From Actinomycetota bacterium (GTDB lineage: Bacteria > Actinomycetota > Acidimicrobiia > Acidimicrobiales > MedAcidi-G1): a DNA stretch of 64,000 bases. Below, one piece after another: positions 3,843 through 45,106 of the stretch; position 1 is the first letter of the stretch; each line of letters opens with the position of its first letter. Made by a program: the position numbers and the translations under genes. The notes under the pieces were generated by a model. That model had not been told where the DNA came from. It worked only from the letters and a program-made list of their open reading frames with translations, and did not search any database. The stretch lies in assembly GCA_002721755.1 (NCBI GenBank), contig PBLL01000015.1:46147-110146 (forward strand), given 5' to 3'.

Positions 3843-3891
3843 GAAAAGACTTAACTAACCCTTGTAAAAGCGATACTATATGAATTGACAT

Positions 3892-3986
3892 ACGGGGAGC
3901 TCGGACCATCCGAGCTGAGAGGACTGAGTCCGGTATCGGAGGGCAGTTGACCCGAGAACCTGATCTGGGTAATGCCAGCGGAGGAA
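3892..3986 (+). promoter_or_regulatory. TPP (THI-box) riboswitch
   Basis: ACGGGGAGC...GCTGAGAGG...GACCCGAGAACCTGATCTGGGTAATGCCAGCGGAGGA contains the conserved THI-box elements; directly upstream of thiamine transporter genes. Confidence 0.95.
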
Positions 3987-5032
3987 TGATGAAAAAATAT
4001 TTTAAGCTCACAACACTAACACTGGTTCTAACGTTGCTTTCTTGTGCGAGTTCTGAAACCGCTTCAAATAATAATCAAACTGGGTCTTCTGTTACTCTGC
4101 TAACTCATGATTCATTTACTGTTTCGGATGGAATCTTTGATTCTTTTACCTCCGAAACTGGTATTTCAGTTGAGCAATTAGCTTTAGGTGATACTGGGCA
4201 ACTCATCTCTGCAGCTATTTTGACTAAAGAAGACCCCCTAGGTGATGTCATCTTTGGTATTGACAATACATTTCTTGGTAGAGCGGTTAACGCCGAGATA
4301 CTGGAAACCTACGAATCGCCAAATAAGAATCAAATACGAGATCACTTTGATCATGACCAATCTCCCTATTTAACCCCAATTGATTTCGGTCATGTGTGTG
4401 TCAACTATTGGAAGGATTACTTCACTGAGTCCCTACCACCCCCAAATAATTTTCACGATCTAATTGACCCCGCTTACTCGAACTTACTTGTCGTGCAAAA
4501 TCCCGAAACATCTTCGCCCGGTTTGGCTTTCTTGATTGCTACTATTTCGCATTTCGGAGAAAATTGGTTGAATTTCTGGGAGAAATTAGACGAAAACAAC
4601 GTTTCTGTTACAAGCGATTGGGAGAGTTCTTACTACGGTGAATTTATTGCTGGTGATGGTCAGAAACCACTAGTTGTTTCATATGCATCAAGTCCCATAG
4701 CGGAGTTAATTTTTTCGGATCCAGAAAGCGGGATTCCTCCAACTGGAATAATTGAAGACACCTGTTTCAAACAAGTTGAGTATGCGGGAATTCTAAGAGG
4801 TACTAAGAAAAGAACTGAGGCTGAAGCGCTTATTGATTTTTTGCTATCAAATACCTTTCAAGAAGACATACCTTTCAACATGTTCATGATGCCAGTTTCC
4901 TCCGAGGCCGAATTGCCGGATGAATTTACTGACTATCCGGAGATACAAACAGGATTTTCGTTATCAGCATTTGAAATAGATGAAAGACGAAATATTTGGA
5001 CTGATTTGTGGACAGAAAAAATACTCCGCTGA
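3986..5032 (+). CDS. thiB: Thiamine ABC transporter substrate-binding lipoprotein
   Basis: MMKKYFKLTTLTLVLTLLSCASS lipobox; ThiB-like VTLLTHDSF...; start at 3986 or 3989 after GGAGGA (the 3947 start lies inside the riboswitch). Confidence 0.88.
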   Translation: MMKKYFKLTTLTLVLTLLSCASSETASNNNQTGSSVTLLTHDSFTVSDGIFDSFTSETGISVEQLALGDTGQLISAAILTKEDPLGDVIFGIDNTFLGRAVNAEILETYESPNKNQIRDHFDHDQSPYLTPIDFGHVCVNYWKDYFTESLPPPNNFHDLIDPAYSNLLVVQNPETSSPGLAFLIATISHFGENWLNFWEKLDENNVSVTSDWESSYYGEFIAGDGQKPLVVSYASSPIAELIFSDPESGIPPTGIIEDTCFKQVEYAGILRGTKKRTEAEALIDFLLSNTFQEDIPFNMFMMPVSSEAELPDEFTDYPEIQTGFSLSAFEIDERRNIWTDLWTEKILR

Positions 5033-42579: not shown

Positions 42580-43608
42580 TCAAATCAGTGATTTAAGAAG
42601 CTTCATTACTAGTCCGTTATCAACTGACTCGACAACTTTTTTGATCCCTTCGTCGATGTCAAGAACAACTCCTGCTATAACTAGTGCAGCGGCGGCGTTA
42701 AGTAAAACCATTTCGCGTCTCGCACCCATCTCGATCCCTGTAAAAATATTTTGAGCTATTTCGGCATTTTCTTCCGCTGAACCACCTTTGATGCTCTCAG
42801 GAGAAAAGTATGAAATTCCCCAGTCCATTGGGTCTAATACCCATTCAGAGATTTCTCCGTCTTTCAACTCCACTATTCTGGAAGGGGCGGTTACTGATAT
42901 CTCATCCGCTCCATCTTCACCTGTAACGATCCACGCACGTTCGGAACTATTTGCAAGTAAAACTTCTGCCATCTGTCTGGCAACCTTTAAATTGGCAGTC
43001 CCAATTAGATGACGCTTTACTCGACCTGGATGCGATAGAGGACCAAGAATGTTAAACACTGTTGGAACTCCTATACCGGCTCTTACAGGTCCGGCGAAAC
43101 GCATTGCAGGATGAAAAGTTTTAGCAAATGCAAAACCTAAATTTTTTTTATTAACCTGCTCAGCCACCTCTTTGGGAGTTTGTTCTATAGGTAGACCCAG
43201 AGCGTCTAAGAGATCAAAAGCTCCAGATGTAGATGATGCTCGCCTATTGCCGTGCTTGCAAACTACTGCACCAGAAGCAGCTGCCACAAAAGATGCCATT
43301 GTAGAAACATTTAGAGCCGCTTCACGTCTCTGAGGGGAACCTCCGGTTCCGACTATGTCTATAGTCCCATCAGGCAAAGAAAGAGGTTCGGATGCATTGA
43401 GCATAGCCCTAACAAGACCGATGATTTCTTCGGTCGTTTCACCTTTAACTTTCAGTGCTACTAGAAAAGCAGCTATCTGAGATGGATCAGCTTCACCTGA
43501 GAGAATCTCACTTAAGACTGATTCTGTTTTATCGGCTGTCAAATTTTTACCGTCACAGAGTTCAGCAAGAAGTGCAGGCCAGCCGTTAAATTTTTCGAGC
43601 ATAACCAC
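42580..43608 (-). CDS. trpD: Anthranilate phosphoribosyltransferase family protein
   Basis: DIVGTGGSPQRREAALNVSTMASFVAAASGAVVCKHGNRRASSTSGAFDLLDALG. Confidence 0.93.
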   Translation of the reverse strand: MVMLEKFNGWPALLAELCDGKNLTADKTESVLSEILSGEADPSQIAAFLVALKVKGETTEEIIGLVRAMLNASEPLSLPDGTIDIVGTGGSPQRREAALNVSTMASFVAAASGAVVCKHGNRRASSTSGAFDLLDALGLPIEQTPKEVAEQVNKKNLGFAFAKTFHPAMRFAGPVRAGIGVPTVFNILGPLSHPGRVKRHLIGTANLKVARQMAEVLLANSSERAWIVTGEDGADEISVTAPSRIVELKDGEISEWVLDPMDWGISYFSPESIKGGSAEENAEIAQNIFTGIEMGARREMVLLNAAAALVIAGVVLDIDEGIKKVVESVDNGLVMKLLKSLI

Positions 43609-43750
43609 TCCCTATATTTCTAGTTGAAGAAAACAAAGTGACTATAAGGATTCTATTGCTTCCTTTTATGTATTTATAAACTGATTAGAACAAACTGCTA
43701 ATTAGAAGTAATTATGTTGCTTATCTACCTACGAAGAGCCACACTGGTAT

Positions 43751-44100
43751 TGGTGAGCCGACCGGGTGATCGCAGTGCATTTGCATTGAGGAAGGTCGGG
43801 GCTCCATAGAGCAGAATGCTGGCTAACGGCCAGTCAAGGTGACTTGAAGGAAAGTGCCACAGAAAATAGACCGCCGATGATTCGATTTCGAAAACAGGCA
43901 AGGGTGAAAAGGTGCGGTAAGAGCGCACCAGCGAACTAGGTGACTTGTTCGGCTAGGTAAACCCCATTCGGAGCAAGGTCAAGAAGGAAGAGGGTTGCTC
44001 GCCCGACGACACTTCCAGGTGGACCGCATAGATGGATGATCACACAACCAGATTCAAAAGGATTTGGTGGACAGAACCCCGCCTACAGGTCGGCTCACCA
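43751..44100 (+). ncRNA. rnpB: RNase P RNA (bacterial type A)
   Basis: GAGGAAGGTCGGGGCTCC, ACAGAAAATAGACCGCC, GGGTGAAAAGGTGCGGTAAGAGCGCACCAGCG, AGGTAAACCCC, ACAGAACCCCGCCTACAGGTCGGCTCACC; GGTGAGCCGACC at the 5' end pairs with GGTCGGCTCACC at the 3' end. Confidence 0.96.
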
Positions 44101-44144
44101 TCAAATTTGTTGTACTGCTTCACGAAATATGAGATAATTACTTT

Positions 44145-44240
44145 ATGGAAACAATGAATTCTGATTGCACATGCGGTCCTAATTGCGAATGCACAGAAGA
44201 AGTTAACTGTGGCTGCACATGCTGGAAAGAAGAAATTTAA
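44145..44240 (+). CDS. Cys-rich 31-aa metallothionein-like microprotein (not in ORF track)
   Basis: ATG GAA ACA ... TAA translates to METMNSDCTCGPNCECTEEVNCGCTCWKEEI; 7 Cys in CxC/CxCxC arrangement. Confidence 0.6.
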   Translation: METMNSDCTCGPNCECTEEVNCGCTCWKEEI

Positions 44241-44260
44241 AACGAAATCAGTTTGGACAA

Positions 44261-44476
44261 CTAGGCAGAAGTTGGGCAAGCCCCTGAGTTTGACATGCCG
44301 TTTTGAACCAGTCTTGTAACCATATTTTCAACTGACGGTGACCACCCAGTACTATCGCTTACTTCCGAGTTAACCGACGGCGCTGTTGTCACAGAATCAA
44401 CCCCTGAAACCAGTCCAGCCGCTGCTAAAGCGAGAGACACTGAGAAAATAACCGCTGCATATCTTTTCATAATCAT
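44261..44476 (-). CDS. Small secreted protein
   Basis: MKRYAAVIFSVSLALAAAGLVSGVDS signal-peptide-like N-terminus, 71 aa. Confidence 0.5.
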   Translation of the reverse strand: MIMKRYAAVIFSVSLALAAAGLVSGVDSVTTAPSVNSEVSDSTGWSPSVENMVTRLVQNGMSNSGACPTSA

Positions 44477-44548
44477 ATTTTAACTCGATCTCTTACCCAA
44501 GACTATTTCTAGTAGATAAAATTCGGTGATTATTGTCACTTAAAATGA

Positions 44549-45106
44549 CTAAAGCACATTGAAATTTCGTAAAACCGGACCATGATTTCCAAAATCTATT
44601 GACATAGAAGACCCAGGAGAAACGTAGCTTCTCCATGCAATTTCAGCGCCTCCACCCAAAACCCATGCTAAAGCTGCTTTTATTGGAGAAACATGAGTCA
44701 CAACCACAACGTCGCTTTCACTTGAAACACTCTTTAACTCTTCGCAAGCTTCCGCGACTCGTATATTTAACGCAGACAAGGATTCACCTTTTTCTGGCGC
44801 CCAGTCAACATCTGATCGCCATTTTTTCCAAATATCACCATCAATACTTTCAATTGAACGACCTTCTAGCACGCCGTAGTCCAGCTCCAACCAACGGGGG
44901 TCCGGGTTAACACTTTCACTTATATAACTAGCAGTTTCCATGGTTCTTCTGAGAGGGCTTGAAATAACAAGATCCACTTTCCCTAAACGGGCTGCTAAAT
45001 CATAGGCTTGCTGGCGACCAACCTCATCAAGATCTGGGTCACTTCTCCCTAATAATTTTCCATTTGCATTGAATTCTGTCCTTCCATGACGAACTATGAA
45101 CAACAT
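44549..45106 (-). CDS. Histidine phosphatase (phosphoglycerate mutase-like) family protein
   Basis: LFIVRHGRTEFNANGKLLGRSDPDLDEVG; VVVTHVSPIKAAL. Confidence 0.92.
   Translation of the reverse strand: MLFIVRHGRTEFNANGKLLGRSDPDLDEVGRQQAYDLAARLGKVDLVISSPLRRTMETASYISESVNPDPRWLELDYGVLEGRSIESIDGDIWKKWRSDVDWAPEKGESLSALNIRVAEACEELKSVSSESDVVVVTHVSPIKAALAWVLGGGAEIAWRSYVSPGSSMSIDFGNHGPVLRNFNVL

Follow-up and report, generated by a model that had tools for sequence, protein, structure and literature searches.

The 31-aa peptide encoded 3′ of the RNase P RNA gene, rnpB, is probably a cytosolic miniature metallothionein. It would be translated from a leaderless mRNA of its own promoter and bind Cu(I) or Zn(II), and phages carry the same module; to this reading, which draws on sequence comparison, a probability of about two in three is given. 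The features that matter here, in the 64-kb stretch of DNA analysed (the window), are as follows.

43754..44101, plus strand: rnpB, class A RNase P RNA (RF00010, 269.3 bits), the upstream neighbour, whose presence is judged incidental
44110..44115, plus strand: −35-like box TTGTAC, separated from the −10 box by 17 bp, TTGNNN in 8/8 genus copies
44133..44138, plus strand: −10-like box GATAAT, preceded by TGA and ending 6 nt before the ATG, conserved in 8/8 genus copies
44145..44240, plus strand: putative mini-metallothionein ORF, 31 aa, ATG to TAA, conserved in the genus with pN/pS 0.155 and all Cys kept

The peptide and its conservation in the genus

Translation from the ATG at 44145 to the TAA at 44240 gives METMNSDCTCGPNCECTEEVNCGCTCWKEEI, which has 7 Cys and no His, with the spacing CxC-x3-CxC-x5-CxCxC. 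The ORF, sequence, Cys count and spacing reported in the first-pass annotation are reproduced exactly. Cys accounts for 23% of residues, and the low mass together with the high content of Cys in CxC or CC motifs is that of a metallothionein. The peptide is strongly acidic. Its AF2 model has no secondary structure (pLDDT 62) and is by itself uninformative. No other ATG-initiated ORF of 20–60 aa within the window has three CxC motifs, and when the window was shuffled 60 times by a first-order Markov model, 3 shuffles contained an ORF with three CxC motifs. Taken by sequence alone, the ORF is unusual without being decisive. It is judged real because of its retention throughout the genus and the purifying selection on it, which sequence alone could not settle.

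In a search of the 49 genomes of the window's family, 6 further genus members turned out to have the ORF, at 81–93% identity, one of them being marine actinobacterium MedAcidi-G1 (contig JUEM01000024.1). Seven congeneric genomes, counting that of the window, yielded rnpB, and in all 7 the ORF is directly 3′ of it (three other congeneric genomes have assemblies without rnpB and are outside this count). For the analysis of selection eight congeneric copies were used, one of which is on a contig labelled Gammaproteobacteria that is evidently mis-binned. Their alignment is gap-free in the ORF and not in its flanks. Summed pS is 0.52 and pN 0.081; for residues 7–29 the values are 0.546 and 0.046. 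Variable sites at codon positions 1, 2 and 3 number 7, 6 and 21 of 29, and TGC and TGT alternate at five of the seven Cys codons, with no Cys residue being changed. From the pN/pS ratio, the codon-position bias and the synonymous switching of Cys codons, 44145..44240 is a coding sequence under purifying selection. The checks proposed earlier, on whether relatives keep the ORF and its Cys spacing and on whether codon-level substitution is neutral, thus have clear answers: both are kept across the genus, and the substitutions are strongly non-neutral. The claim of a genuine and conserved microprotein of metallothionein type gains support from retention, Cys pattern and selection alike.

Distribution and genomic context

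Beyond the genus the ORF is present in 2 of 8 genomes of the sister genus, where it is between nitroreductase-like and SRPBCC-like genes. A profile made from the first nine sequences was used to search the wider order, and this led to copies in one genus of a second Acidimicrobiales family (8 of 19 genomes, most of them incomplete MAGs), with an acyl-CoA dehydrogenase-like gene on one side of it and a convergent thioredoxin-like gene on the other. All these neighbours were named by eye from sequence. The patchiness in both groups is due in part to MAG incompleteness. Within the window's family three more genera are well sampled, and none of them gave a convincing match; nor did a class-wide search or 397 other genomes of the phylum yield any convincing further homologue. 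Of the genera in the family MedAcidi-G1, two are epipelagic and three are deep (PMC10205998), and we infer that it is the epipelagic (surface-ocean) genera that bear the gene.

Since the gene has other locations in relatives outside the genus, and sister-genus rnpB loci are without it, it is solitary and its adjacency to rnpB is incidental. In none of the three contexts does a metal-handling or recognisable metal-repressor gene adjoin it, neighbours again being judged by eye. The position of the ORF, given in the first-pass annotation as about 45 bp past the rnpB 3′ end, is right (the gap from the Rfam-defined end at 44101 to the ATG at 44145 is 43 bp); what those other contexts and the sister-genus loci do not sustain is a functional relevance of being next to rnpB.

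Two other features of the window may be recorded here. On the minus strand, a convergent 71-aa ORF at 44261-44476 has a signal-peptide-like start and relatives at the same place in contigs L118 and L119, with no Pfam or NCBIfam match of note. A TPP riboswitch is at 3883-4004 on the plus strand (RF00059, 63 bits).

The 19 cellular sequences share the signature C-x-C-x(2-3)-C-x-C-T-x-E-x-N-C-G-C-x-C-W. Residues C8, C10, C14, C16, T17, N21, C22, G23, C24 and W27 are invariant, so that six Cys never vary, and the seventh (C26) is replaced once, by His, on its sequence a conservative exchange for a metal ligand. Ligand positions are accordingly conserved under selection as in a metallothionein, with Cys invariant in the genus and a single Cys-to-His exchange in the wider set. 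Two contigs labelled Gammaproteobacteria and Flavobacteriaceae (L119, PBFS01000001.1, and L124, PAYI01000002.1) have Acidimicrobiales gene versions and synteny and are probably mis-binned.

A promoter-like element and a probable leaderless start

Between rnpB and the ATG, 8/8 genus copies have the arrangement TTGNNN, 17 bp, [GA]A[TG]AAT, 5–6 nt, ATG. A Shine-Dalgarno sequence is absent from the same 8/8 copies, in keeping with the earlier caveat that no strong one is visible. Most copies outside the genus have TANNNT 6–7 nt 5′ of the ATG; in one subgroup there (L057/L122) GGAG takes its place. The window as a whole offers a parallel: in 8 of 54 long ORFs TANNNT precedes the first ATG by exactly 6 nt, and any other spacing has 0–3 such ORFs. 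A sharp −10 peak just before the ATG is a mark of leaderless transcription in other actinobacteria, and the peak at exactly this distance suggests that this lineage commonly makes leaderless mRNAs. With a conserved promoter-like element whose −10 box is 5–6 nt before the ATG, and no Shine-Dalgarno sequence, the mini-metallothionein is probably translated from a leaderless mRNA of its own promoter. The case for the element is made by conservation and position, as a scan of 43600-44560 for generic sigma-70 promoters and terminators called nothing and so misses it. As no terminator was detected in the gap, additional transcription by read-through from rnpB may occur. Of the two routes to expression first suggested, an own promoter is favoured by the conserved element in the 43-bp gap, and read-through as the sole route is not.

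Viral copies and Clostridia fusions

Searching with a degenerate DNA pattern that encodes C-x-C-x4-N-C-G-C-x-C-W brought up 16 viral stretches with the module, and a single 36-kb contig accounts for two of these. In almost all of the 16 the second Cys is followed by Thr and, two positions on, by an acidic residue, neither being required by the pattern. Three further viral matches lack the Thr and the acidic residue and look like chance; the pattern matches L112, L114, L115, L125, L128, L140, L145 and L149 were set aside as apparent chance or non-homologous Cys-rich frames. The free-standing viral proteins, from marine contigs, have 21–29 aa and 8–9 Cys and, unlike the genus copies, mostly good ribosome sites. 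In one viral set the module gene and the 3′ end of a Fer4_15 ferredoxin gene overlap, and in another type it is just 5′ of a WCGPC thioredoxin gene. The 36-kb marine contig (IMGVR_UViG_3300031774_000064; L135, L138) has one free-standing copy beside the ferredoxin, and another that forms the tail of a protein of ~50 aa encoded before a DNA cytosine methylase. With genes for two WhiB-like proteins, a terminase and a portal protein as well, it probably belongs to an actinophage. When 249 Acidimicrobiales genomes were searched, the ferredoxins closest to the viral one proved to be in G159 and G124 (E about 1e-34, versus 1e-28 for the next), which belong to the mini-metallothionein-bearing genus of the second family. 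The similarity fits host–virus sharing, in a search that covered the order Acidimicrobiales only.

Two DUF1858 proteins of gut Clostridia, with a weak match to ScdA_N as well, end in the module as CDCTEDDNCGCxCW (L121:2498-2797 and L126:6605-6976), as if a metallothionein-like tail had been fused to a redox-type domain; the Acidimicrobiales copies are solitary genes. The viral and Clostridia modules otherwise carry the same signature as the cellular ones, down to the Thr and acidic residue outside the DNA pattern. They may have a common descent with the cellular modules, though the sequences are too short for proof. Related modules without the final C-W are present on two further viral contigs, L161 (minus strand) and L162:6003-6291; one follows a signal-peptide-like start (DTAVCSCGKDCKCTAESNCGC) and the other reads MSDCDCPCGPNCECTEEENCGCK.

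Relation to known metallothioneins

No Pfam, NCBIfam or PHROGs model matches the peptide family. PF02069, to which the bacterial SmtA, BmtA and PmtA belong, does not match the query at E up to 10 or the sister-genus and viral copies at E up to 1, and its best place in the whole genome, below cut-off, is elsewhere than the ORF. The peptide is not a PF02069 member. The likeness to those small Cys-rich proteins is in their N-terminal CxC..CxC, to which the CxCDPCxC of the sister-genus copies comes closest. SmtA, BmtA and PmtA have about 9 Cys plus His and a zinc-finger part (PMC7387436). Cyanobacterial members typically have a divergent smtB-type repressor with its operator, whereas no such neighbour was seen, by eye, in any of the three contexts of the present gene.

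The copper metallothionein of Neurospora crassa (25 aa; PDB 1T2Y), which binds Cu(I), is nearer in size, in its 7 Cys and in its CxC-based spacing, which is C-x-C-x5-C-x-C-x3-C-x-C-x2-C as against C-x-C-x3-C-x-C-x5-C-x-C-x-C in the query. Neither peptide has an aromatic core or His, and metal-driven folding is expected of both. The query differs in being strongly acidic and in its invariant T, N and W; a PDB search with it gave no sequence match to 1T2Y, and the likeness is convergent at best. MymT, the mycobacterial copper metallothionein, is longer than the 31-aa peptide and differs in the arrangement of its motifs. No Pfam or NCBIfam model matched the query, in libraries that may lack one for MymT. 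What MymT shares with the query is that it is small, Cys-rich and actinobacterial (PMC7387436). The phmmer matches in the PDB to jerdostatin (E 0.5) are a coincidence of Cys, and named phages and plasmids gave no match to the peptides in tblastn, where such short queries have little power. The Neurospora protein is taken as the closest analogue in function, and the peptide probably works like it, with no defined metallothionein family assigned.

Function and its alternatives

In composition and motif the peptide resembles a metallothionein, and it probably acts as one. Transcription would start at the promoter squeezed between rnpB and the ATG, probably giving a leaderless mRNA, and the product, without a stable fold of its own, would wrap soft metal ions with its seven thiolates (CxC, CxC, CxCxC). 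The metal would most likely be held as a Cu(I) thiolate cluster, or as one or two Zn(II). The absence of His and the density of CxC lead us to lean to Cu(I), with Zn(II) nearly as likely. The role would be metal buffering or detoxification, and in marine phages the module would probably manage metal and thiol chemistry during infection. Several points count against this: the invariant Trp and the T-x-E-x-N-C-G-C segment exceed the needs of a pure metal sponge, no metal-related gene adjoins the ORF, neither PF02069 nor any other library model matches it, its distribution is patchy, and the promoter escapes the generic sigma-70 scan. Conservation of T-x-E-x-N-C-G-C-x-C-W, together with the viral redox neighbours, may point to a specific metal or Fe-S partner role.

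Such a role would be filled by a small thiolate redox or Fe-S-linked metal carrier that serves a ferredoxin, thioredoxin, DUF1858 or ScdA_N-like partner, for instance by keeping Fe-S or Zn ready to be delivered or used in repair, and not by buffering free metal. The overlap with the Fer4_15 gene, the place just 5′ of the WCGPC thioredoxin, the tails of DUF1858 proteins with their weak ScdA_N matches and the conserved non-Cys T, N, G and W would all suit a carrier. However, adjacency of phage genes may be accidental, the cellular copies are solitary in three unrelated contexts with no common partner, and CxC-dense peptides with 7–9 Cys are typical of metallothioneins and not of Fe-S proteins; a carrier is unlikely. 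Less likely still is a regulatory or adaptor microprotein in which one or two Zn fold the peptide for target binding and the T-x-E-x-N-C-G-C-x-C-W surface, with its invariant Trp, contacts protein or nucleic acid. Invariance of W27, T17, N21 and G23 would accord with such a surface and the Cys-to-His swap at C26 with a Zn site, but up to 9 Cys in 21–24 aa, as in viral forms, is far beyond what a small Zn finger needs, and a strongly acidic peptide has no positive patch for nucleic acid. That the ORF arose by chance in the 3′ trailer of rnpB, or is an RNA feature linked to that gene, would explain the position directly after rnpB throughout the genus and has a precedent in the three shuffled windows, but it is left with almost no probability, chance being ruled out by codon-level selection (pN/pS and the bias of substitution among codon positions) and a link to rnpB by the other contexts in which the dispersed homologues are found.

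Significance

A limited literature search found no published description of this peptide family. The metallothionein reading extends, tentatively and with a little less than an even chance, to a new family of 21–32 aa (C-x-C-T-x-[ED]-x-N-C-G-C-x-C-W), common to surface-ocean Acidimicrobiales and their phages, mobile between hosts and viruses, with a coupling to ferredoxin or thioredoxin in the phages. As of 2020, biological function had been investigated for only two bacterial metallothioneins, SmtA and MymT (PMC7387436). The short invariant motif is a direct handle for searches, and the peptide is quick to synthesise and test. If the proposal is true, the module is an auxiliary metal/thiol gene moving between host and virus, and a class of 21–32 aa, under the usual cut-offs of gene callers, would be systematically missed in ocean actinobacteria and in the viruses of the same waters.
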